A stretch of DNA of 11,385 bases from a bacterium (GTDB lineage: Bacteria > Patescibacteriota > Doudnabacteria > UBA920). Both the position numbers and the translations under genes were made by a program. The DNA lies in NCBI GenBank assembly GCA_021789715.1, contig JAJYJE010000015.1, positions 1 through 11,385 on the forward strand, written 5' to 3'. The notes under the pieces are model-generated. The model saw only the letters and a list, made by a program, of their open reading frames with translations. It made no database searches and was not told the origin of the DNA. Shown here in pieces: positions 82 through 11,385 of the stretch. The first letter of the stretch is position 1; each line of letters opens with the position of its first letter.

Positions 82-3000
82 CTACTTAGCAATAGCGCTA
101 TTAGTCGGGTAGTTCGGGATGAAGGTGTTGCTGCCAACTTGTCCGACAAGCGAAGCGTTGCCGTTGATATCGTTGAAGGTGAAGGCAGTTGCCGCACCCA
201 AACTGACGGACAAAGACGGCGTATTCGCGCTGCCAGTGCTCGTGACGTGAACAACAATGTTGTAGGTCTTGGAAGTACCCGCAGCAATGCTGTTGTCAGT
301 GGTCACCGGAACGCTGGTCGCGTTGTTGACGATGGTTGCGGCCGGAGCGGCGGTTACGCCGGTGGACGCGTCAACCAGGGAAATCGTGTCAGCAGTGACG
401 CCAGTAGTGCTGGCCACCGTGAACGGAACCTGAGTCAAAGTCACATTGCCGCCCGCGTTGGCGGAAACGGTAATGGAACCGACGGTGATATTGCCGGCGG
501 ACATTGCGTTGCCCGCGGAAGTCAAAGTCACAGTCGGGTAGGAACCGACCAGATCAAAGGTGTTCGAGTGGGCCTGGACCGCATAGGTCGTACCGCCGGT
601 CGGCAGATACTTGGTAGTGCTGCCGGAGAGGTACTTGACGCGGATCAGGTTCAAAACGAACTGCTGGTTGCCCGGAACGCCGTTATTGCCAACCGGAGCA
701 AAGCCAACGGTCACCGGAACATCCACGCCGGCGTAAGTGGTCGGAACAGCAATGCTCAAACCACTGACGGAGGAGGAAGCGTTAACCATTGGAGCGGTTA
801 CGCCGCCAACGGTCACGCTGGTAATGGAAACCGCGCTGCCGCTGGAGTTGGTGGTATCGAAGTCCAATTCCTGGATGGTCGCGCCGCCGCCGGTAGACGT
901 GAAGTTAAACGTGGCAGCCGGAGCGTAGTTGGTGCCGGAAGTCGGAACCACGAACGAGGCAACCGGAGAGGAAGTCTGGAGAGTCGGGGTGGCAACAGTG
1001 CCAGTGCCGACGGTAATAACCTGGCCGTTTTGGCTGGACAGGGTCACAGTCTGGCTGCTGGTCGAACCAATGCCGCTGCCTTTCAACGCCGCCTGGATGG
1101 TGCCAGTGGTATTGCTGACGTCTGCGTAGACATCAACGGTAGCCGTCTGGTTCGCCGCCACAGTGAAGTTGGTGGAGAAGTTGGTGCTGGCCGAAGGAGC
1201 CACCGGAGTGGTGCCGTTCGGGAAATCCGGAGTCACCAGGTAGAGGTTGGCCAAAGTCGTGGTCGGGTTGGCGGTGTTGTTGCTGCCAGCCGTAAAGGTC
1301 ACGGTGAGGCTGTTGACTCTCACGCCATCGGCATTGGAAGCCTGAATGACGAAGGAGCCGATCTTCTGCTTGGTCGTGTTCGGGGAAATCGTCTGGTTAG
1401 CATAGCCGGTATTCAGCGCCAGAGTAGCGTTGCTGCTGCTTACGGACAGGTGAGTGCCGGTGTAAGTAGTGTCGCCGCTCGGGGTAAGCGAGAACGAAGT
1501 CGCGCCCTGCAAAGAATTCTGCGGGGTGACTAAATCGGTCCGGATATCCGCCCAGGAATCGCCGCTGCCCACTACGGAATCGCCCTTAACCGCCACGGTC
1601 ACGGTCTGGCCGGCCGGGATGGTAAAGAGGTTGGTAGTGCCAAAGGTGTAGCTGGGGGTCGCGGAAGACGGGCTGATCGCGCTCAAAGAAGAGCCGACCT
1701 GGGAGCCGTTCACATACACCGCGAGGTTGTTAAAGCCATCGGTGCTGGACGGCGTAACAGCCGTAGTCGCGTCGCTCAGGAAGTAGTTCAACGCTACTTT
1801 GAGGTTCTGAACTTTGACGTCTTCGCCATAGGCCTTCATAGTCCACTGGCCCAGGGTAACCTGGGAAGCGTTCTTTACGAACTGAGTGGCCGTAAAGGAC
1901 GGATCCTGCTGGACGGTCACGGTGCCGCTGTTGATAGTGGTCGTGCCCGGGTTCAGCTGCAGGATTTGAGTGCCGTCGTTATGAGTCAGCGGCACGTATA
2001 CGCTGTAGCTGGTATCCTGGAACAAAGCGTCGGATTCGGTTTGCAGGGTGAACTCGTAGGTGTACGAAGTGCCCTTTACAATATCACCATGCAGCTCAAT
2101 GGTGTGGCTGCCGGTGTTTAAGGTAACCGGGCTGCCGGTCAGGTCGAATACCACCACATTGGTGTTGGTACCCATGCTGCTGACGCTGGCAGTGCTGCCG
2201 ACCTGGGAACCGTCAACCATAAGTTTGAGGTTCTGGATGGCATCGCTGGAAACGGAACCGATCTGCTTGAACTGGATATAGCTCAACTTGACCGCGCGCT
2301 GGCCAACGGTAACCGTGGTGCCCCACAGGTTGGCGTTGGAAGTACCGGCATTAATGGTACCGTTGGTGCCGTCATTGGCGCCGGAACCGGTAATGCTGGA
2401 AGTATTGCTGTTATTGCTTAACTTCACGGTCGCAACATCGCTCACCGCGGCAATATTAAAGAGATTGCCGGAGATCGAAGTTGAAGCCGGCGTGCCGTTG
2501 GCCACAGTGTAAGAAGCCAACTGGGCGCCGATGGACTGGCCGGAGATGTTCGTGCCAACGTCTACGCGCACCGAAATGGTGGCGGTGCCGCTAACCGTGA
2601 ACAATCCGTTGGAATTGCTAAAGGTTACCTGGCCGTTGCTGAACGAACCGGCATCGGTGATGCGGTTGTTGCCCTGGTAGAGATAAACGTTGTTAATGCT
2701 GGTGTCAGCAGAAACGCCGACTCTCTTAACAATAACCTGGGTCACAGTGCCGCTGCCGCTGAAGGTGAAGTGCGCGATATCCGCGCCCACCTGGCTGCCG
2801 CTGCTGGAAACGCTGGAAGAAACCAGAGTACCCGCAGCCGGAGTGTCGGAAGACAAAGAGGCAGTGACATTGCCGGAGACTACGCTGCCGCCGGTGCTGC
2901 CGCCGGTGCTAGCCAAAGCGGTCGGGCTGAGCTGGCCGGGCTGGCGCATAGCCATAACGCCGGTCTGGGTCATAGCCTTATCCGCGGCATTGGCCGGGAC

Positions 3001-3606
3001 AACGTCAGCAAAGGAGTAACCCCAGCTGTTGAAGGTGGCCAAGTCCGGAATACCGAGCAAGCCGTTGGAACCGACCAATTGGACGGTGCCGTTGTTATTA
3101 ACCAACACGCCCGGCAAGTGAGCCGAGGTGCTGTTGTCGATGTTGGCGGTCTTCGTTAAGAACGAGGAATCGCCATACTGCGCGCGGCTGAAGCTAAAGC
3201 CCAAGCCGGTGAACACAGCAGCGCTGGTGAACGCGGCTTTCTGGCCGCCGGTGATCAGAGAGCATTCGCCCTTGACATCGGAGCCCTTAGTCGCGGTAGC
3301 GCAAAAGATTTTGCCGTCCTGCGGCGGGATAAACCCGGCAGAATCAACCGGCAAAGCCAAGTCGTCGCTGCTCGCCGGAACTACGGTGCTCCAGGAATTG
3401 AAGCCGTAGGAAAGGAAGGCGCCAGCAGACGTGTAGGCGCGGCGGGTGCCATTGGCAGTGATCATCCAAATGGTACCCGAGCTGTCGGAGACATTAGTCC
3501 CGGCGCCATGCGCGGCGGCCTGAGCCGCAAACGGCATAGCGAGAGACATCGTCATCGCGACCGCGGAGCCTACAGCAAAGATTTTCTTTGCGAGAGTATC
3601 TTGCAT
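82..3606 (-). CDS. Secreted surface-layer-like protein with N-terminal repeat modules and beta-rich body
   Basis: This codes for 1174 residues, probably a structural protein of the cell envelope or S-layer. An ATG further upstream (3651) is possible, but the ATG at 3606 is preferred: AAAGGAG sits six bases before it and a classic signal peptide begins directly there. The signal peptide has Lys7-Lys8, a hydrophobic core and an AQA site ending at residue 30. Three modules of about 65 residues follow (about 34-97, 98-165, 166-227). Each holds a pattern of the type G-x-hydrophobic-xxx-xx-NG, then xxF-xxxG-Y/F-x-F. The only two cysteines I see (102 and 115) are in module 2 and may form a disulfide. 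A Ser/Gly linker leads into about 930 residues rich in Thr, Ser, Val and Asn, with repeated beta-sandwich-like units (for example the DGSQVGS and NGSQVGS strands). I see no LPXTG motif, transmembrane anchor or SLH domain. Surface-layer identity is inferred from architecture; an adhesin is the alternative. Confidence 0.8.
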   Translation of the reverse strand: MQDTLAKKIFAVGSAVAMTMSLAMPFAAQAAAHGAGTNVSDSSGTIWMITANGTRRAYTSAGAFLSYGFNSWSTVVPASSDDLALPVDSAGFIPPQDGKIFCATATKGSDVKGECSLITGGQKAAFTSAAVFTGLGFSFSRAQYGDSSFLTKTANIDNSTSAHLPGVLVNNNGTVQLVGSNGLLGIPDLATFNSWGYSFADVVPANAADKAMTQTGVMAMRQPGQLSPTALASTGGSTGGSVVSGNVTASLSSDTPAAGTLVSSSVSSSGSQVGADIAHFTFSGSGTVTQVIVKRVGVSADTSINNVYLYQGNNRITDAGSFSNGQVTFSNSNGLFTVSGTATISVRVDVGTNISGQSIGAQLASYTVANGTPASTSISGNLFNIAAVSDVATVKLSNNSNTSSITGSGANDGTNGTINAGTSNANLWGTTVTVGQRAVKLSYIQFKQIGSVSSDAIQNLKLMVDGSQVGSTASVSSMGTNTNVVVFDLTGSPVTLNTGSHTIELHGDIVKGTSYTYEFTLQTESDALFQDTSYSVYVPLTHNDGTQILQLNPGTTTINSGTVTVQQDPSFTATQFVKNASQVTLGQWTMKAYGEDVKVQNLKVALNYFLSDATTAVTPSSTDGFNNLAVYVNGSQVGSSLSAISPSSATPSYTFGTTNLFTIPAGQTVTVAVKGDSVVGSGDSWADIRTDLVTPQNSLQGATSFSLTPSGDTTYTGTHLSVSSSNATLALNTGYANQTISPNTTKQKIGSFVIQASNADGVRVNSLTVTFTAGSNNTANPTTTLANLYLVTPDFPNGTTPVAPSASTNFSTNFTVAANQTATVDVYADVSNTTGTIQAALKGSGIGSTSSQTVTLSSQNGQVITVGTGTVATPTLQTSSPVASFVVPTSGTNYAPAATFNFTSTGGGATIQELDFDTTNSSGSAVSITSVTVGGVTAPMVNASSSVSGLSIAVPTTYAGVDVPVTVGFAPVGNNGVPGNQQFVLNLIRVKYLSGSTTKYLPTGGTTYAVQAHSNTFDLVGSYPTVTLTSAGNAMSAGNITVGSITVSANAGGNVTLTQVPFTVASTTGVTADTISLVDASTGVTAAPAATIVNNATSVPVTTDNSIAAGTSKTYNIVVHVTSTGSANTPSLSVSLGAATAFTFNDINGNASLVGQVGSNTFIPNYPTNSAIAK

Positions 3607-3610
3607 TTTT

Positions 3611-3619
3611 TGCTCCTTT
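3611..3619 (-). promoter_or_regulatory. Ribosome binding site fixing the surface-protein start
   Basis: On the minus strand AAAGGAGCA ends five bases before the ATG at 3606, with GGAG six bases from it. This is the strongest Shine-Dalgarno site in front of any complete gene in the window. It favours this start over the in-frame ATG 15 codons upstream. Confidence 0.8.
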
Positions 3620-3626
3620 TCTAGGA

Positions 3627-3651
3627 TTGATTGTTCAATTGAGACAATCAA
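3627..3651 (-). promoter_or_regulatory. Stem-loop in the surface-protein leader next to the ribosome binding site
   Basis: TTGATTGT (3627-3634) is the exact reverse complement of ACAATCAA (3644-3651), giving an eight-pair stem with a nine-base loop. On the mRNA it ends eight bases before the AAAGGAG site. Such a leader hairpin could stabilise an abundant mRNA or tune its translation; which of these it does is not visible from the sequence. It is AT-rich with no U-run, so it does not look like a terminator. Confidence 0.5.
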
Positions 3652-4314: not shown

Positions 4315-5727
4315 TCATGCGGCTCCTCCTCGCGCCGCACGCCGCTTTTGAATGAACAAATCCATAATCTCAGAAACTAGAAATGGTTTCCTTAGCACCG
4401 GCATTTTGTGCTGCCGGCACAACTCCTCCTGCTCCGGCGGGACAATGGTACCGGTAATAATTACCGCGTCGCTTTTGGGAGCTTGTCTCAGCAATTCCGC
4501 GCCAAGCTCTATGCCGCTGCCGTCCGGCAGTATATAGTCGAGAACAAGGTAATCGGGCCGCAGTCCCTGCCGGATTACTTGTTTGGCCTCAGCCGCAGTT
4601 TCCACCGTCGATACCAGCCAGCCCTTTTCGCCCATCATCTTTTCGAGAAACTGCAACAGATCGCGGTTATCGTCCACCAACAAAACGATTGGATAAGACG
4701 GCGCGGCATCCGCGGCTATGCCCACCTTCAGGTCCAAACGCTCGCCGCTTCCGCGGGCCGCCCAAACACAACTGCCGGGCGGAATCCCGCCTGACGCCAC
4801 CATAGCGGCTAATGGCTGGGTCAGATGGCGATGGATGGTGCGGTTAAGTTCGCGCGCGCCGTATTCCCGGCTAGTGCCCTTTTCCAATAAAAACCGCCGG
4901 GCATCATCGGAAACAACAAGGCTGAACGAACGCATGCCCAGCCGCATGTTTACATGGGTCTGCAAGTCCCCAATGGCTTTATTGAGGATCGCCGCCAGTG
5001 TCTCATCGCTCAAGGGCTGGTAAGTGATAATACTGTCGATGCGGTTAATGAACTCCGGACTGAACCGCTTGCGCACCGCTACGAGGCTGATTTGCTGCAA
5101 TTTAGCGAGAAGTTCCTCCTGCCCAGTAGCCCAGGAAGCTGCCTGTCGCGGCGCCTGGAAGCCGAACTCGGGACTGATCTCCCGCAACATTTCCCTGGCG
5201 CCGAGATTGCTGGTCAGAAAAATCATGCTCTTCTCGAAATTGACCGTGGAATTATCGCCGAGCTGCAAAATCGCTTTATCCAGGACACCAAGCAACAGAC
5301 GGGTCATGGACGGCGCGGCTTTTTCGATCTCGTCGAACAGCACGAGCGATAAACCGCATTTTTCCGTGGTGACGGCATTCAGCTTTTGTTGCGTGAGCAA
5401 AGGCTGCGTTTCGCGGTGGCCAAGGTATCCCGGCGGCGCGCCGATCAGCTTGGCCACCTCATGGTTCATCTGAAATTCGCCGCAGTCGATCTTGAGCACG
5501 CATTTATGGCTGCCATGCAGCACTTCGGCCAGCGCCTCCACTGTTTTAGTCTTGCCGGTACCCGTCGGCCCGAGAAGCAAAAATACCCCGACCGGCCGGC
5601 CTTCCGGCGCCAATCCCGCCTGGAACATCTGGATGCACGGAATAATCTGGTTTGTGGAATTAGACTGGCCAATTACCTTTTTGTCCAGTAATTTCAACAA
5701 ATCAGCGGTTACCGTTGTTTCTTCCAT
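4315..5727 (-). CDS. ClpB-D2-like AAA+ ATPase fused to a C-terminal response-regulator receiver domain
   Basis: The protein has 470 residues. Residues about 16-320 resemble one AAA+ ring, the second ring (D2) of ClpB/ClpA unfoldases: IGQ at 19-21, Walker A GPTGTGKT 53-60, pore loop GYLG 100-103, Walker B LVLFDE with D132 and E133, sensor 1 N174, arginine finger R229 in PEFINRID, and sensor 2 GAR with R292. The Clp N-domain, first ring and ClpP-binding loop are absent. After a short linker, residues about 346-462 form a CheY-like receiver with the acidic pair D352/D353, phospho-acceptor D397, T425 and K447, all intact. This suggests a protein remodelling ATPase controlled by phosphorylation; the substrate and partner kinase are unknown and no kinase is in the window. 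The start is supported by GGGG six bases upstream. Both domain calls are firm; the function is inference. It would act in the cytosol. Confidence 0.9.
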   Translation of the reverse strand: MEETTVTADLLKLLDKKVIGQSNSTNQIIPCIQMFQAGLAPEGRPVGVFLLLGPTGTGKTKTVEALAEVLHGSHKCVLKIDCGEFQMNHEVAKLIGAPPGYLGHRETQPLLTQQKLNAVTTEKCGLSLVLFDEIEKAAPSMTRLLLGVLDKAILQLGDNSTVNFEKSMIFLTSNLGAREMLREISPEFGFQAPRQAASWATGQEELLAKLQQISLVAVRKRFSPEFINRIDSIITYQPLSDETLAAILNKAIGDLQTHVNMRLGMRSFSLVVSDDARRFLLEKGTSREYGARELNRTIHRHLTQPLAAMVASGGIPPGSCVWAARGSGERLDLKVGIAADAAPSYPIVLLVDDNRDLLQFLEKMMGEKGWLVSTVETAAEAKQVIRQGLRPDYLVLDYILPDGSGIELGAELLRQAPKSDAVIITGTIVPPEQEELCRQHKMPVLRKPFLVSEIMDLFIQKRRAARGGAA

Positions 5728-5888: not shown

Positions 5889-5962
5889 CGGGCTGTAGTA
5901 TACCGGTAGTACATCTGCTTTGGGAGCAGATAGACTGGGTTCGATTCCCAGCAGCCCGACCA
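5889..5962 (+). tRNA. tRNA-Pro (anticodon UGG)
   Basis: All four arms fold: acceptor CGGGCTG/CAGCCCG, D stem GTAT/GTAC, anticodon stem TCTGC/GCAGA, T stem CTGGG/CCCAG with loop TTCGATT. The seven-base anticodon loop is TTTGGGA, so the anticodon at 5921-5923 is TGG, followed by G37 as is usual for proline tRNAs. The acceptor starts with C1-G72, also typical of bacterial tRNA-Pro. The discriminator is A5959, and CCA is encoded at 5960-5962. Two details are odd: position 15 is C and position 48 is A, where a purine-pyrimidine pair is normal, and the variable loop has only four bases. It is the only clear plus-strand gene and stands alone between two minus-strand genes. Confidence 0.95.
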
Positions 5963-6150: not shown

Positions 6151-7779
6151 TTAAATCTTAATTATGTACCCTTCGTGCGGGCGGAGCAGAAAATTCCTCA
6201 AATGAGCCGCCTCCCCCGCCGGGCGGTCCATATAAGTGGTCAGCAGCATCGTGCCGGTCTCCGCGGGAAGAGTTATGGCGCGCGCTTGGTCGGAAAAATT
6301 CAACAACACCGCCACGCGCTCCCCCTCCCCCTCCCGCATATAAGCAAAAACTTCTTCGTCCGCCAAAACCAGCGGCTCAAACCGGCCAAACAGCAGCGCC
6401 GGACTGTCCTGGCGCAGCTTGATTAAATTCTTGTACAAAGCCAACACCGAGCGGGTATCGGCGAATTCCGCCTCCGCGTTCACGTGAGTATAATTTTCCG
6501 AAACCGGCAGCCAGGGCTGGGAAGTTGAAAATCCGGCGTACTCTAGCGCGTTCCATTGCATCGGCGTACGCTCGGGATCGCGGCCCAGCTTCATGCCCGG
6601 CACGTTCTTTTCGTACTGATCCCGCACCAGCTCATGCGGAATAAGTCCATCCACCATGCCGATCTCTTCCCCGTAATAAATAAAAGGCATGCCCCGCAGC
6701 GTAAACTGCAGCATCGCCGCCAGCCTGGCGCGCTCCAAACCAAGCCGGCTGGCCACCCGCGGCTGATCATGATTGCCTAAAACGTAATTCGGCCAGTCAT
6801 ACGGCTTAAGCGATGCCTCAAACTCCGTAATAAACTTCCGGTATGCGTCCACCCGCCATGGCATGCCGATGAGATTAAAATTAAACGGCGAGTGCCTGCC
6901 ATTGCCGCAGACGCGGTAATACCTTGCCATCTCTTCAATGCCGGCATGCAGCTCGGTCACCATAAACTTTTCCCCAAAACCGTCCAAGAATTGGCATAAC
7001 TCCTTTAGAATGCTTAAGGTCTCTTCCTGTCCCTGCGTGTACTGCTGTAACAAAGCGTGGTAGGGATCCATGCTGCCGGGGGCGAAATCCGGATTCGGAG
7101 GGTTATCCCGCAACTTGGCGTCTTTAACCAGCCAATGGACGGCGTCCACCCGAAATCCGTCTACGCCGCGGTCCAGCCAAAATTTCAGCACCGCTTTCAT
7201 AGCCGCCCCCACCTCCGGGCTGCGCCAATTCAAATCCGGCTGCTGTTTTAAGAACGTGTGAAAATAATACTGGCCGGTTTTTTCATCCGATTCCCAGCCG
7301 CTGCCGCCAAATACCGATAGCCAATTATTGGGAGGCTGGAGCTGGTCCCGATTCCGGCCTGCCGGCGCGGTATCGACTTTAGGATCCGCCCAAATATACC
7401 AGTTCCGTTTGGGATTCTCGCGCGAGGCGCGCGATTCCAAAAACCACGGATGCTGGTCCGAGGTATGATTCGGCACATAGTCCATCATAATCCTAATGCC
7501 CAGGCCGTGAGCCTCAGCCACCAGGCGATCAAAATCCTCCATCGTGCCAAAAAGCGGATCTATGGCGCAATGATCGGAAATATCATAACCAAAATAGCGC
7601 ATCGGTGATTTATAGACGGGCGATAGCCATATGGCGCCAATGCCTAAGTCGTGCAAATAATCGAGCTTTTCAATAATTCCCGGCAAATCCCCCACCCCAT
7701 CGCCGTTGCTATCCTTAAAACTGCGGGGATAAATTTGGTAGACAACCGCAGTGCGGTACCACGGAAGTTCTTGGCGCAT
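6151..7779 (-). CDS. GH13 alpha-glucosidase (oligosaccharide-hydrolysing alpha-amylase family enzyme)
   Basis: At 542 residues this has the usual length for cytosolic GH13 exo-glucosidases. A calcium-binding-type loop D-x-N-x-D-G-x-G-D is at 23-31. The conserved regions are all present: DYVPNH 100-105, QPDLNW 180-185, GFRVDA 208-213 with nucleophile D212, VTELH 274-278 with acid/base E276, and GNHD 335-338 with D338. A small beta C-terminal domain follows residue 460. QPDLNW is typical of the alpha-glucosidase/oligo-1,6-glucosidase group. Alanine after the nucleophile, rather than valine, leans towards alpha-1,4 bonds, but this is a weak guide; sucrose-active or transglycosylating activity cannot be excluded. 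There is no signal peptide, so it acts on imported or internal oligosaccharides. AAGGA lies 11 bases before the ATG, rather far. It is the last gene of the carbon-metabolism cluster. Confidence 0.9.
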   Translation of the reverse strand: MRQELPWYRTAVVYQIYPRSFKDSNGDGVGDLPGIIEKLDYLHDLGIGAIWLSPVYKSPMRYFGYDISDHCAIDPLFGTMEDFDRLVAEAHGLGIRIMMDYVPNHTSDQHPWFLESRASRENPKRNWYIWADPKVDTAPAGRNRDQLQPPNNWLSVFGGSGWESDEKTGQYYFHTFLKQQPDLNWRSPEVGAAMKAVLKFWLDRGVDGFRVDAVHWLVKDAKLRDNPPNPDFAPGSMDPYHALLQQYTQGQEETLSILKELCQFLDGFGEKFMVTELHAGIEEMARYYRVCGNGRHSPFNFNLIGMPWRVDAYRKFITEFEASLKPYDWPNYVLGNHDQPRVASRLGLERARLAAMLQFTLRGMPFIYYGEEIGMVDGLIPHELVRDQYEKNVPGMKLGRDPERTPMQWNALEYAGFSTSQPWLPVSENYTHVNAEAEFADTRSVLALYKNLIKLRQDSPALLFGRFEPLVLADEEVFAYMREGEGERVAVLLNFSDQARAITLPAETGTMLLTTYMDRPAGEAAHLRNFLLRPHEGYIIKI

Positions 7780-7887: not shown

Positions 7888-8760
7888 TCATTTTCCCGCA
7901 TCTATCAGATTATTCCAATCCGCGGCGAATTTCGCGATTCCCGAATCCGTAAGTTCATGCCGGATATTGTAACTTTGCCGCGGCTGAACCAGGTCAAGTT
8001 CCCTATATGGAATAGGCTGCAGCTTTTCGCTTTTCACTCCCGACTTTTCGCCGCTGGTCGGCATTCCGGCCGCCGCCCACTCCTGAATGGCTTTAAGGGG
8101 CGCGGTGATGATATCCGCGCCCAGTTCTATGGAGCGGACAAAATGGGATAAATTGCGAACGCTTGCCGCCAGCACTTCCGCGTGGCGGTCGCCGCGGCGA
8201 TACATCTGAACAATGTTGGAGATTAAATCCAGGCCGTTCTCGCCGCGATCATCAAGCCGGCCAATAAAAGGCGAAACAAACACCCCGCCTTTTTTTGCAC
8301 CCTTGGTCGCGGCATAAACCGCAGCGGCCTGCTCCTGGGAAAACACCAGAGTCATGTTTACGCGCAGGCCTTCCTTTACCGCCATTTCCGCGGCCTTTAA
8401 GCCTTCGGCGGTCGTAGGAAACTTAATGTGCGCATTGGGAATCCAGCCGTAAAATTCCTTGCCCTGCTCCAGCATTTCTTCGGCCGGCGTTTCCGCGTCA
8501 GCGTAGACTTCGATCGAAACCGAACCCTCCGGGATTAGGGCCGCCACTTCCTTGGTCACGCTTTCATAGAAATGCAAGACCTCCGCGGCGGAAAATTTTT
8601 CTCCCCGGGCCAGCCTGGCCTGAGCATCGGGATTTTTGGCGATAAGCGACGGGTTGGTGGTCTGCCCATCCAAAAAGCCAAGCAGGTCCAAAGCCGCTTT
8701 GGTTTCCTTAGGATCGCCGCTGTCGAGGAATATCTTTGTGGTAAGCCCTTGGGGACGCAT
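7888..8760 (-). CDS. tal: Transaldolase
   Basis: The 290-residue protein transfers a dihydroxyacetone unit between sugar phosphates in the non-oxidative pentose phosphate branch. The signatures are the TTNPSLI strand motif at 34-40, Schiff-base lysine K113 in AHIKFPTT, the NMTLVFSQEQA segment at 135-145, and the SPFIGRLDDRG phosphate-binding region at 163-173. It is longer than the compact TalC/MipB type (about 220 residues) because of an N-terminal KIFLDSGDP leader and a C-terminal tail after residue 235. The start MRPQGLTTKIFLDSGDP is typical for related enzymes as I remember them, so the ATG at 8760 is retained although no Shine-Dalgarno site precedes it. Upstream in the same frame, beyond a TAA, lies a short ORF that does have one. 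It sits between the LOG and GH13 genes in a co-directional run. Confidence 0.93.
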   Translation of the reverse strand: MRPQGLTTKIFLDSGDPKETKAALDLLGFLDGQTTNPSLIAKNPDAQARLARGEKFSAAEVLHFYESVTKEVAALIPEGSVSIEVYADAETPAEEMLEQGKEFYGWIPNAHIKFPTTAEGLKAAEMAVKEGLRVNMTLVFSQEQAAAVYAATKGAKKGGVFVSPFIGRLDDRGENGLDLISNIVQMYRRGDRHAEVLAASVRNLSHFVRSIELGADIITAPLKAIQEWAAAGMPTSGEKSGVKSEKLQPIPYRELDLVQPRQSYNIRHELTDSGIAKFAADWNNLIDAGK

Positions 8761-8781
8761 ATGATTTACGATGCGCTGAAT

Positions 8782-8823
8782 TTACAAATTACGAACCGAC
8801 TTGTCGTGTAAACATTTTGTCAT
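8782..8823 (-). CDS. Possible 13-codon leader ORF upstream of transaldolase
   Basis: ATG at 8821-8823 is preceded by AGGAAG with a five-base spacer, a good ribosome binding site. It runs 13 codons (MTKCLHDKSVRNL) to TAA at 8782-8784. The stop lies 21 bases before the transaldolase ATG and in the same frame. It may be a leader peptide that brings ribosomes to the otherwise site-less tal start. Chance is the alternative, since such short ORFs are common. I recognise no homologue. Confidence 0.25.
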   Translation of the reverse strand: MTKCLHDKSVRNL

Positions 8824-8888
8824 TTTAACTTCCTAACATACTGCTAAGGCGATAGCGCGTTAAGGTAATGCTTCGAACGTGCGCAAAC

Positions 8889-9593
8889 TCAGCTGAATAA
8901 GTGTTTTTTCTTCGGCAAACCTTTAATGTACTCATACGCTTCTTCCGCGGTGTCGACGAGCCGGTAAATATCCATATCTTCCTTATCAATGGAATGATTC
9001 TTTTCGTAAAGCGTTGTTTTTACCCACTCCAAAAGCGGAGCCCAGAATTCCCTGTTGACCAGAACAATCGGCACGGCGCGGATCTTATGCGTTTGGGTCA
9101 GCGTCACCATTTCAAAAAATTCGTCAAGCGTACCAAAGCCGCCGGGGAAAAACACGTAAATCTGCGAAGCGTACTCCAGCATAACCTTGCGGGTAAAAAA
9201 ATACGAAAATGATTCGCTTTCTTTAACATACTGGTTCGTGCGCTGTTCCATAGGCAGGCGGATGTTAATGCCCACGCTCTTGCCTTTGGCTTCGTAGGCG
9301 CCTTTGTTGGCGGCTTCCATAATCCCCGGTCCGCCGCCGGTCATCACGGTAAACCCGGCTTTCGACAGCATGCCGGCAAGCTTGGTCGCTTCTTCATAAA
9401 CTTGGGGGTCGAGACCGCGGCGCGCGCTGCCCATAATACTGACGGCCTTCTTGTAATTTTTCAAAAATTCAAAGCCGGAAATGAACTCGGCCATAATCCG
9501 GAAAATCGTCCAAGTCGGCAATTCTTTCACGCCCTGCCGGACTTTTTCCAAATGCTCAATAGGTTGGTATTGGGGTTTTTCGGTGTAAGCCAT
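8889..9593 (-). CDS. LOG family protein (nucleotide 5'-monophosphate phosphoribohydrolase-like)
   Basis: The protein has 234 residues and a Rossmann-like fold. The two family signatures are clear: [14 protein letters not shown] at 86-99 and PGGFGTLDE at 150-158, with R135-K136 of the RK pair between them and GSARRG at 55-60. LOG enzymes cleave nucleoside 5'-monophosphates to the free base and ribose 5-phosphate; they were first known from cytokinin activation and in bacteria also serve nucleotide turnover (PpnN type). A helical N-terminal stretch of about 45 residues precedes the core, as in the longer bacterial members. The ribose 5-phosphate product fits the neighbouring transaldolase, which suggests nucleotide salvage into central carbon metabolism; this link is inference. 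The ATG at 9593 has no Shine-Dalgarno site, and an in-frame TGA at 9603-9605 prevents any extension upstream. Confidence 0.9.
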
Positions 9594-9647
9594 ATTTTGG
9601 TTTCAATTTAACGAATAAGCAAGATGACAATTAAGCATAACTACATT

Positions 9648-9662
9648 TTAACACAATCTCAT
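9648..9662 (-). CDS. Possible 4-codon leader ORF upstream of the LOG gene
   Basis: AAGGAGG (9672-9678), the best Shine-Dalgarno sequence in this half of the window, lies nine bases before ATG AGA TTG TGT TAA, which encodes only MRLC. It is in the same frame as the LOG gene 54 bases further on, with a second stop (TGA) in between. Either the strong site drives a regulatory minimal ORF, or it is a relic. The LOG gene itself has no such site. Confidence 0.25.
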   Translation of the reverse strand: MRLC

Positions 9663-9676
9663 TTAACACTGCCTCC

Positions 9677-9708
9677 TTGTTAAATTGTTTAATTGTTAAA
9701 GTGTTAAT
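9677..9708. repeat. Four tandem 8-base repeats of TTGTTAAA type
   Basis: On the plus strand the units are TTGTTAAA, TTGTTTAA, TTGTTAAA and GTGTTAAT, head to tail from 9677 to 9708. Two more TTAACAC elements, in inverted orientation, lie at about 9648 and 9663. The array starts seven bases after the aldolase stop codon, and its left end overlaps the strong Shine-Dalgarno sequence. It could be a regulator binding array or simple slippage in AT-rich spacer DNA. No terminator for the aldolase gene is visible here. Confidence 0.6.
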
Positions 9709-9714
9709 GTAATG

Positions 9715-10779
9715 CTAGTCTTGTGTCGCCTCTCCTCCGGCCGATGTTTCGAACCCTTTCTCAAGTTCGGGAGCGTACTGCCCCTGGCTGGCCAAGCTGT
9801 TCATTTTGGCGCGGTGCAGGAACACGCGCTGGGCTGCGGCCAAATTTGCGTCCTTGCCCTGCCAAACTTTGGTGGCGCTATCCTGCAAGGCGCGCGCGTA
9901 GGAAAACGTGACCGGCCACGGCAAAGGCCCGTGCTGATGCATGGCGTTCAAATTTTCCGTAGCCTGAATTTCGCCCTGGCCGCCGGATAAAAACACCACG
10001 CCGGCCAAATCTTGCGGCAGCGTCTCCGCGAAAACCCGCAAGGTAGCCCTGGCAATTTCATCGGGAATAGCCGGCTGGCCGGAATCCTTGCCCGGCAGCG
10101 CCATGCTCGATTTTAAAACCATGCCGGAAGGAACCGCCCCGGCTTTGGCCAATTCTTCAAACACCGCCCGGAGCGTTTTATCCAGCACAATTTCGCAAGT
10201 CGCCAAACTATGATTGCCGTCCAAGAGCACCTCCGGCTCAACCATCGGTACCAGCCCCGCTTCCTGGCAGGCCAGTGCGTACGCGGCCAAATCCCTGGCG
10301 TTTTGGCGGATATTGGCGTCGCTAGGCGTTTTATCCGTAATCGTAATCACCGCCCGCCATTTGGCAAACCTAGCGCCCATAGACGCGTATTCGCGCAAGC
10401 GGCCGCTTAAACCATCCAAGCCCTTGGTCACCTTTTCTGAGGGTGAGCCGGGAAATTCAGCCAAACCTTGGTCGACTTTTATGCCGGGTAATATGTTTTC
10501 TTCCTGCAGCGCGTCTACAAAAGTTTTGTGCGACGAAGTTGCCTGATGAATAGTTTCGTCAAACAAGATCACTCCGCTTATGTACCGGCCCTCGCCGGGG
10601 GCGGTCAGCAGCATCTCGCGGAAGGCGCGGCGGTTATCTTCGGTATTTTCCAGATTAATGGCGGCAAACCGCTTGCCTACGGTATTCATACTTTCGTCCG
10701 CCGCCAAAATTCCTTTGCCCGGCGCCACCATTTGTTTGGCAATTTTATTGAGTTCGGCAACCTGTTCTATATTAATCAT
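9715..10779 (-). CDS. fba: Class I fructose-bisphosphate aldolase (eukaryote-like type)
   Basis: The 354-residue enzyme reversibly cleaves fructose 1,6-bisphosphate to dihydroxyacetone phosphate and glyceraldehyde 3-phosphate in the cytosol. The class I family motifs appear in order: GILAADES 23-30, IKVDQG 100-105, FAKWRAV 138-144, EPEV 181-184, Schiff-base lysine K223 in LKSSM, LSGGQ 264-268 and SYAR 293-296. Length and motif order match the classical animal and plant type, not the metal-dependent class II enzyme or the short archaeal DhnA type. It lies downstream of glpX, so aldolase and bisphosphatase are together, which favours a gluconeogenic or sugar-phosphate supply role. The ATG at 10779 has no close Shine-Dalgarno site; the nearest GGGAG is about 25 bases upstream inside the small ORF. 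An in-frame TAATAA forbids a longer N-terminus. Confidence 0.95.
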   Translation of the reverse strand: MINIEQVAELNKIAKQMVAPGKGILAADESMNTVGKRFAAINLENTEDNRRAFREMLLTAPGEGRYISGVILFDETIHQATSSHKTFVDALQEENILPGIKVDQGLAEFPGSPSEKVTKGLDGLSGRLREYASMGARFAKWRAVITITDKTPSDANIRQNARDLAAYALACQEAGLVPMVEPEVLLDGNHSLATCEIVLDKTLRAVFEELAKAGAVPSGMVLKSSMALPGKDSGQPAIPDEIARATLRVFAETLPQDLAGVVFLSGGQGEIQATENLNAMHQHGPLPWPVTFSYARALQDSATKVWQGKDANLAAAQRVFLHRAKMNSLASQGQYAPELEKGFETSAGGEATQD

Positions 10780-10800
10780 AGATTTTAATTTTATTACTTA

Positions 10801-10893
10801 TTACTCTCCCACAACTTCCTTCCACAATTCTAAAGTCTCCTGTTTGGTTAAAGGCCTGCGCAATTCTTCTGATTTTTGCTTGGCCATGCGCAT
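10801..10893 (-). CDS. Small ORF of 30 codons between glpX and fba, hypothetical
   Basis: ATG at 10891-10893 lies two bases after the TAA of glpX (TAA-AG-ATG). It reads 30 codons to TAA at 10801-10803, immediately followed by a second in-frame TAA and, seven codons later, the aldolase ATG. A second ATG two codons in gives MAKQKSEELRR, an equally likely start. The peptide is highly charged, with one Trp and repeated Leu, and would form an amphipathic helix (TKQETLELWKEVVGE at the end). No membrane segment or known motif is visible. The tight spacing suggests translation coupled to glpX. It may be a real small protein, a translational bridge to fba (which has no ribosome binding site), or a fortuitous ORF. 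I do not recognise a homologue. Confidence 0.45.
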   Translation of the reverse strand: MRMAKQKSEELRRPLTKQETLELWKEVVGE

Positions 10894-10895
10894 CT

Positions 10896-11385
10896 TTATT
10901 CGATATTTGTAAATTTACCGCCTCTCCTTCGAGTTTGCCTCAACTCTTTCTCATGGTGGCGGGTGGTTATATAACGGACGGTTCCGGATATTCCCCGAAT
11001 GACTATCGAATGCGTAATAATCGTCGGACCCGCAAACTGTACGCCTTGCAAAAGCGGGCCGTCAATGACGCCGGTGGCGGTAAAGGTAAGCTGATTGCTT
11101 TTGGCCAGAGCATTCACGTCGTAAATTTTCGAGGTTGTCAGGCCGGCATCCCTAATAAGTTTAGCATGTTTTTCATCTTTCGGCTTAAAGCGGCAAAACA
11201 TCCGGCCGCCTAAAATTTTTACGGCCACGGCCGCCAGTACCGCTTCGGCCGACGCGCCGGCCCCCATCAGCAAGTCTATTCCCGATTCCGGCAGGCACGG
11301 CGCAATGGCGCCGGCCACGTCGCCATCGGTGATTAATCGCACGCGGGCGCCGGCTTTCCTAACATCGGCGATAAGTTTTCCGTGG
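10896..11385 (-). CDS. glpX: Fructose-1,6-bisphosphatase class II (GlpX), C-terminal half, cut by the window edge
   Basis: The frame is open to the right edge; 162 residues are visible, about half of a typical GlpX. The enzyme removes the 1-phosphate of fructose 1,6-bisphosphate in gluconeogenesis and depends on divalent metal. The visible part starts near HGKLIADVRKAGARVRLI and continues with family motifs ITDGDVAGAIAP, GIDLLMGAGASAEAVLAA, GG at the end of the next helix, TGVIDGPLLQGV and GTVRYI. A basic tail (RQTRRRGGKF) follows. A GTG inside the frame (11340-11342) is not the start: it lies in the middle of a conserved stretch. The gene leads the cluster, and its stop is two bases from the next small ORF. 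The bifunctional FBPase/SBPase form of this family remains possible. Confidence 0.93.
   Translation of the reverse strand, partial: HGKLIADVRKAGARVRLITDGDVAGAIAPCLPESGIDLLMGAGASAEAVLAAVAVKILGGRMFCRFKPKDEKHAKLIRDAGLTTSKIYDVNALAKSNQLTFTATGVIDGPLLQGVQFAGPTIITHSIVIRGISGTVRYITTRHHEKELRQTRRRGGKFTNIE

Follow-up and report, generated by a model that had tools for sequence, protein, structure and literature searches.

A Clp-type AAA+ ring with a C-terminal receiver domain: a candidate ClpP partner in a Doudnabacteria genome and in Acidobacteriota

Introduction

NtrC-type activators carry their receiver domain at the N-terminus. A receiver is also linked to a Clp unfoldase by RssB, which acts in trans and delivers sigma-S to ClpXP, whereby phosphorylation lowers the apparent Km for sigma-S turnover about 3-fold (PMC7226468). 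The Clp ATPases that bind ClpP are described as sharing an (L/I/V)-G-(F/L) tripeptide in a docking loop (PMC8745299), and mitochondrial CLPB/Skd3 as carrying N-terminal ankyrin repeats (PMC9934407). Here we analyse a gene of contig JAJYJE010000015.1 (assembly GCA_021789715.1; Patescibacteriota, Doudnabacteria), in which a Clp-type ring is followed by a receiver. The contig stretch of 11,385 nucleotides is called the window throughout. The gene (4315..5727, minus strand) is an open reading frame (ORF) with an ATG start that codes for a single-ring Clp ATPase of 470 amino acids with a C-terminal receiver. We propose, with a probability of about 0.5, that this protein is a single-ring unfoldase that partners ClpP and is gated by its own receiver, and not a ClpB disaggregase.

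Results

Domains and conserved residues of the fusion protein

Pfam recognises three domains in the one 470-residue frame, all over their cut-offs and, like every feature of the protein, on the minus strand. AAA_2 comes first (residues 44-233; 5029..5598; 115.5 bits, cut-off 27), then ClpB_D2-small (residues 239-321; 4765..5013; 57.3 bits, cut-off 21.9) and last Response_reg (residues 348-456; 4360..4686; 48.5 bits, cut-off 30.2). A sequence-only reading of the window had assigned to this protein all motifs of an AAA+ D2 ring and of a receiver, and these assignments held. By residue read-out and alignment we located Walker A (G53-T60; 5548..5571), the pore loop G100-Y101-L102-G103 (5419..5430) and the Walker B sequence LFDE with D132/E133 (residues 130-133; 5329..5340), and by alignment the arginine finger R229 (5041..5043) and the sensor 2 residue R292 within ClpB_D2-small (4852-4854). 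The receiver contains the full phospho-acceptor set, namely the acidic pair D352/D353, the phospho-acceptor D397 (4537-4539), T425 and K447 (4387-4389), so that the acidic pair, phospho-aspartate, threonine or serine, and lysine of a response regulator are all present. Ring and receiver are joined by a linker at about residues 337-346 (4690..4719), as judged from the alignment and a predicted model.

Conservation was assessed in 63 rows, consisting of the window protein and the receiver-bearing proteins of 62 loci. K59, D132/E133, R229, R292 and D397 are invariant (63/63); D352 and D353 are each conserved in 62 of the 63 rows, as is K447, for which the remaining row has a gap, and the position of T425 is threonine or serine in 57. 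On average, the commonest residue accounts for a share of 0.87 in the AAA domain, 0.79 in D2-small, 0.50 in the linker and 0.75 in the receiver. The architecture, the catalytic and phospho-acceptor residues and the docking-loop motif described below are thus conserved.

The receiver could alternatively be a docking or oligomerisation module only, with phosphorylation being irrelevant. The window holds no kinase gene, and the sole recognised kinase-like cluster of neighbours occurs in 4 loci (label by eye, 13 clusters inspected). Furthermore, a sister set of 14 proteins has the same ring without a receiver and hence the ring can exist without it. We regard a purely structural receiver as improbable, since D397 (63/63), the acidic pair (62/63) and the lysine (62/63) are conserved as phosphorylation would require.

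Distribution of the architecture

A protein search with the window protein scored at least 7,997 candidates, and at least 7,992 of these reached E ≤ 1e-3. Among the 120 matches listed, the proteins other than the query are 66-69% identical to it, and ring and receiver profiles built from the 63 rows found ring then receiver in 120/120, window protein included. With a Gemmatimonadota member as query the same profiles found this order in 119 of the 120 matches listed, P0231 being the exception; P0234 from that search likewise has no PF00072 in its Pfam list. In a separate alignment (A2) Response_reg matched 42 of 47 members, which equals the number labelled receiver-bearing, and three of the five receiver-less members, scanned singly, gave no Response_reg match.

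We also scanned one genome per species and took the best 80 of 167 confirmed loci. The gene was recovered by ORF calls at 76 of these loci, 62 of which have a receiver and 14 of which lack one. The remaining four were assigned by tblastn, L055 and L086 as receiver-bearing and L082 and L088 as receiver-less, so that all 80 loci divide into 64 and 16; counts elsewhere in this text leave these four out and use the 62 and 14 loci with ORF calls. According to record titles the 62 receiver-bearing loci belong to Acidobacteriota (59), Gemmatimonadota (2) and Pseudomonadota (1, Nevskia), and the 14 receiver-less loci to Acidobacteriota (13) and Actinomycetota (1, Acidimicrobiia). The Nevskia and Acidimicrobiia records were placed among acidobacterial rows in a quick tree and may be mis-binned. 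Carriage on plasmids was considered and dropped, as no match was obtained among 72,556 plasmid records at 1e-60.

The architecture is therefore widespread in Acidobacteria and present in Gemmatimonadota. It is not peculiar to this organism, as had been suggested, and two separate genes joined by an assembly error are unlikely, given that at 62 loci both halves share one frame and follow each other in this order. It had also been considered that the architecture might be already common and characterised. Common it is; a description of AAA_2, ClpB_D2-small and Response_reg in one protein was not found in the literature searched, nor anything on ClpB_D2-small paired with Response_reg, although reviews of receiver output domains might mention it. 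Some relatives are annotated automatically at one source as 'ATP-dependent Clp protease ATP-binding subunit ClpA/CheY-like chemotaxis protein'. Apparently, the architecture lacks prior study.

Docking loop and class of the ring

In this family a motif [F/I/L]-G-F lies between sensor 1 and the arginine finger; in the window protein it reads FGF (residues 188-190; 5158..5166, located by alignment). We aligned 81 members, of which 63 are receiver forms and 18 lack the receiver; four of these 18 come from relatives of the host. Gly-Phe is invariant in 81/81; the first residue is phenylalanine in 71, including the window protein, and isoleucine or leucine in 10. Shortly after the motif, in columns 193-197, the commonest residue covers only 20-30%. 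Opposite the motif, E. coli ClpA has IGL and the four double-ring Clps from Patescibacteria in the alignment have [I/L]GF, whereas E. coli ClpB has a gap at this position.

The sequence-only reading had called the ring ClpB-type. The fold, compared for the ring alone, fits this name; the docking loop does not, and the label was rejected in this part. Because the invariant [F/I/L]-G-F loop resembles that of ClpP-binding Clp ATPases, a protease subunit is likelier than a ClpB-like remodeller. Of the ATP-driven protein remodelling that had been proposed, the Clp-type ring with its receiver is retained, and a protease subunit is the better guess as to its use.

A ClpP-independent remodeller or disaggregase would be a one-ring HSP100 protein whose receiver tunes chaperone activity instead of proteolysis, as the ankyrin domain of Skd3 controls assembly and activity. 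The protein does have the single D2-like ring of the Skd3 type, and a Skd3-like one-ring disaggregase is the nearest alternative to a model based on RssB. We nevertheless consider it rather unlikely, given the invariant Gly-Phe at the ClpP-docking position in 81/81 members and its absence from E. coli ClpB. Ankyrin repeats were not detected by Pfam. Of the ClpB disaggregase features (two AAA+ rings, a middle domain and an N-domain) the 470 residues show one AAA_2 domain with no other Pfam domain before it. This single AAA_2 domain also falls short of the two rings of ClpA and ClpC, and there was no Pfam match to the N-terminal zinc-binding domain of ClpX. The NCBIfam ClpX models scored 34-42 bits, far below the ClpB and ClpA models (see Discussion).

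Two other assignments were discarded. For an NtrC-type sigma-54 activator, no GAFTGA was seen in the translation by eye and no helix-turn-helix was matched by Pfam; Sigma54_activat reaches 26.4 bits and passes its cut-off of 20.2, but AAA_2 scores far higher. A replacement of ClpA by the fusion protein was dropped as well: none of 18 genomes passes the ClpA cut-off, yet all 18 match below it (best 831 of 993 bits), which says little. As regards a possible anti-phage role, PADLOC gave ten matches, whose best stretches lie within residues 8-188 and thus in the ring only (best PDC-M37B, 9.4e-23; DolB, 2.9e-14).

Possible partners in the cell

The remaining seven ORFs of the window gave no Pfam match to a kinase, to ClpP or to a sigma-54 factor. 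The protein had been called an orphan on this ground, which is true of its neighbourhood and false of the cell. In the host genome we found a single ClpP match, four HATPase_c matches (domain matches, hence candidate kinases) and eight receivers over the cut-off, the fusion protein and seven others. ClpP was over the cut-off in 18 of the 18 receiver-form genomes tested. Among the 35 genomes behind 35 loci, 28 contain a further, more distant receiver-less one-ring match (44-51%) at 1e-70, as counted by eye.

Gene neighbourhood in Acidobacteriota

Neighbour families were checked on one example each. Upstream sequence of 2 kb or more was available for 56 receiver-bearing loci. Of these, 38 have a gene for translation initiation factor IF-1 upstream on the same strand and 33 a cold-shock gene; the IF-1 gene is missing in 18, among them the two Gemmatimonadota loci and the Pyrinomonadaceae loci. 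The 14 receiver-less loci have the IF-1 gene in 12 cases and the cold-shock gene in one. A UDP-N-acetylglucosamine (UDP-GlcNAc) 2-epimerase gene occurs at 11/62 receiver-bearing and 7/14 receiver-less loci, and, on the opposite strand, a Cas6-like gene at 24/62 and 0/14, respectively. The order csp, infA, in some cases the UDP-GlcNAc 2-epimerase gene, and then the ring gene is seen upstream of the ring gene in many Acidobacteriota (L017-L058). As many of the loci belong to one order, this neighbourhood is largely a matter of shared descent. A parallel worth noting is E. coli, where cspD, clpS, clpA, serW and infA lie within about 4 kb on different strands. Two clusters of apparent small conserved genes upstream on the other strand were rejected as candidates; they are antisense to csp, infA or wecB where these are present (12 loci).

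Origin of the gene in the host

The host genome comprises 833,565 bases in 116 contigs and is 78% complete. In 145 relatives of the host the other close matches were four receiver-less one-ring proteins, 42-47% identical. A search of 379 genomes of the same phylum (E ≤ 1e-60) found the receiver form in the host only and the receiver-less form in three. The nearest relatives are acidobacterial, with up to 69% identity. A careful tree of the ring places the window protein inside a set of 29 rows of acidobacterial receiver forms (support 100/96), mostly Bryobacterales/Solibacteraceae by title, and a tree with the receiver included gave the same grouping (100/99).

Some tree results weigh against a firm placement. 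A position of the window protein outside the other 28 acidobacterial rows was not rejected (p 0.444). A constraint that groups it with the four receiver-less rows from Patescibacteria was not rejected either (p 0.908 in the quick tree, 0.534 in the careful tree), and the constrained tree was in both cases the one of higher likelihood (by 26.3 and 2.1, respectively). We infer that the result with the patescibacterial rows reflects ambiguity in the attachment of those four long branches. The quick tree further suggested that the 14 receiver-less rows had lost their receiver, whereas in the careful tree the receiver forms all fall on one side (60/99). Neither grouping was rejected, be it a single clade of receiver forms (p 0.965) or one of receiver-less forms (p 0.57), and loss was dropped as a conclusion, as the trees fit gain or loss.

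The evidence from gene order does not depend on the trees. Stretches were taken from seven relatives, and in five of them (G001, G002, G006, G010 and G011) a transaldolase gene and a large surface-protein-like gene flank tRNA-Pro(TGG), which in the window lies at 5889..5962 on the plus strand beside the fusion gene; in G011 the tRNA is on the opposite strand. G003 and G009 hold the surface gene alone and no tRNA. No relative of the ring-receiver gene or of the alpha-amylase gene mentioned below was found in the five stretches at 1e-8. The fusion gene is thus an extra gene within an otherwise shared gene order. Since transaldolase, tRNA-Pro and surface-protein-like gene adjoin without it in five relatives, it looks like a horizontal insertion, and the host copy seems to have been acquired horizontally.

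An assembly or binning artefact, either two joined genes or an acidobacterial contig in the wrong bin, would agree with the acidobacterial resemblance of the gene and with the fragmented, incomplete genome. We think this very improbable indeed. The identical fusion exists at 62 loci. Relatives in the host genus or family match the transaldolase of this contig at 69-75% and reach 58% with its large surface-protein-like gene, and there both genes keep their order around the same tRNA-Pro. The guanine-plus-cytosine content of the gene, about 0.57, is also inside the range of the contig (0.46-0.59).

Several further genes were noted. The space from tRNA-Pro to transaldolase is occupied by an alpha-amylase family gene (6151-7779), which was not found in the matching stretches of the five relatives; both sides of tRNA-Pro therefore carry a gene that these lack there. 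The ORF at 82-3651 (1189 amino acids), beside tRNA-Pro in the five relatives, has a signal-like start and no Pfam match and looks like a large surface protein. Positions 7888-11384 encode GlpX, class I fructose-bisphosphate aldolase, a LOG-like gene and transaldolase, in an order kept in G001 and G010 and in part in G002 and G006. The receiver-less one-ring Clp of relative G003 adjoins a 386-residue ORF that is transposase-like (L006, 1370-3889), and another follows the end of an FtsZ-like gene (L007, 1-2763), both labels being by eye.

Discussion

Ring formation, use of ATP and threading through the pore are suggested by the conserved motifs and the known family. Six subunits would form an ATP-driven ring and pull the substrate through the pore by the GYLG loop. 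The flexible loop with F-G-F would dock the ring on ClpP, so that substrates would be degraded; from the loop motif, docking is probable. The receiver, on a flexible C-terminal linker, would be phosphorylated at D397 by a kinase encoded elsewhere and could then switch ring assembly, docking on ClpP or the choice of substrate. Such phospho-control is, judging from the intact receiver, slightly more probable still. The unfoldase would in that way contain its own two-component adaptor, the counterpart of RssB for ClpX. The gene may have been acquired horizontally from a lineage near Bryobacterales/Solibacteraceae (Acidobacteriota) and inserted next to tRNA-Pro. Hexamer, ClpP partnership, phosphorylation, direction of the switch, substrates and donor are what we infer. 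Only tentatively do we put forward the fullest form, a phosphorylation-gated Clp protease subunit with unfoldase, ClpP dock and receiver in one chain, in which a kinase signal turns proteolysis on or off.

Several observations count against a receiver-gated ClpP partner. The tripeptide F-G-F departs at its first residue from the published (L/I/V)-G-(F/L) (PMC8745299). A ClpP gene was found neither in the window (Pfam) nor, by tblastn with the host ClpP at E 1e-5, in the 80 loci of Acidobacteriota and related bacteria, and the window has no linked kinase that might phosphorylate the receiver. No N-domain or zinc domain for substrate recognition was matched by Pfam in the 470 residues. Among the NCBIfam models ClpB scores best (206 bits) before ClpA (198), both far under cut-off; the ClpB equivalog cut-off of 1232 bits belongs to a model spanning two rings and is beyond the reach of a single ring. 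The predicted model (predicted template modelling score, pTM, 0.75) does not fix the placement of the receiver relative to the ring, and its confidence is low in the loop around FGF.

A described link between a receiver and a Clp unfoldase, RssB-ClpXP, operates in trans via an adaptor (PMC7226468); here the receiver is covalently joined to the unfoldase. If our proposal is true, two-component signals would have a direct route to the destruction or remodelling of proteins, in an architecture found in two phyla. It would be a standard link from signal to proteolysis in Acidobacteriota and Gemmatimonadota, often encoded beside cold-shock and translation-initiation genes in the former. It would also have moved as one gene into a bacterium with a reduced genome, which clearly illustrates how a regulated unfoldase can pass by itself from one phylum to a distant one. 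The prediction concerns one 50-kDa protein and ClpP.

A near counterpart is the second ring of ClpC and ClpA, the double-ring partners of ClpP; compared with these, the window protein has one ring and is without the N-domain or first ring. It has instead a C-terminal fused receiver, and in its family the first residue of the tripeptide is mostly phenylalanine. Like ClpX it is a single ring and, by its loop, may be a candidate to serve ClpP; unlike ClpX it has no Pfam match to the N-terminal zinc domain. In comparison with CLPB/Skd3 it has a C-terminal receiver and a ClpP-type loop in place of ankyrin repeats. With the NtrC-type sigma-54 activators it shares an AAA+ ring and a receiver, but its receiver is at the opposite end, its ring is of the Clp type and Pfam finds no DNA-binding domain. 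As with RssB, a receiver is proposed here to control a Clp unfoldase; RssB does so in trans, whereas the receiver of the window protein is within the unfoldase chain. By this analogy, the closest functional model would be an RssB-like adaptor acting in cis.
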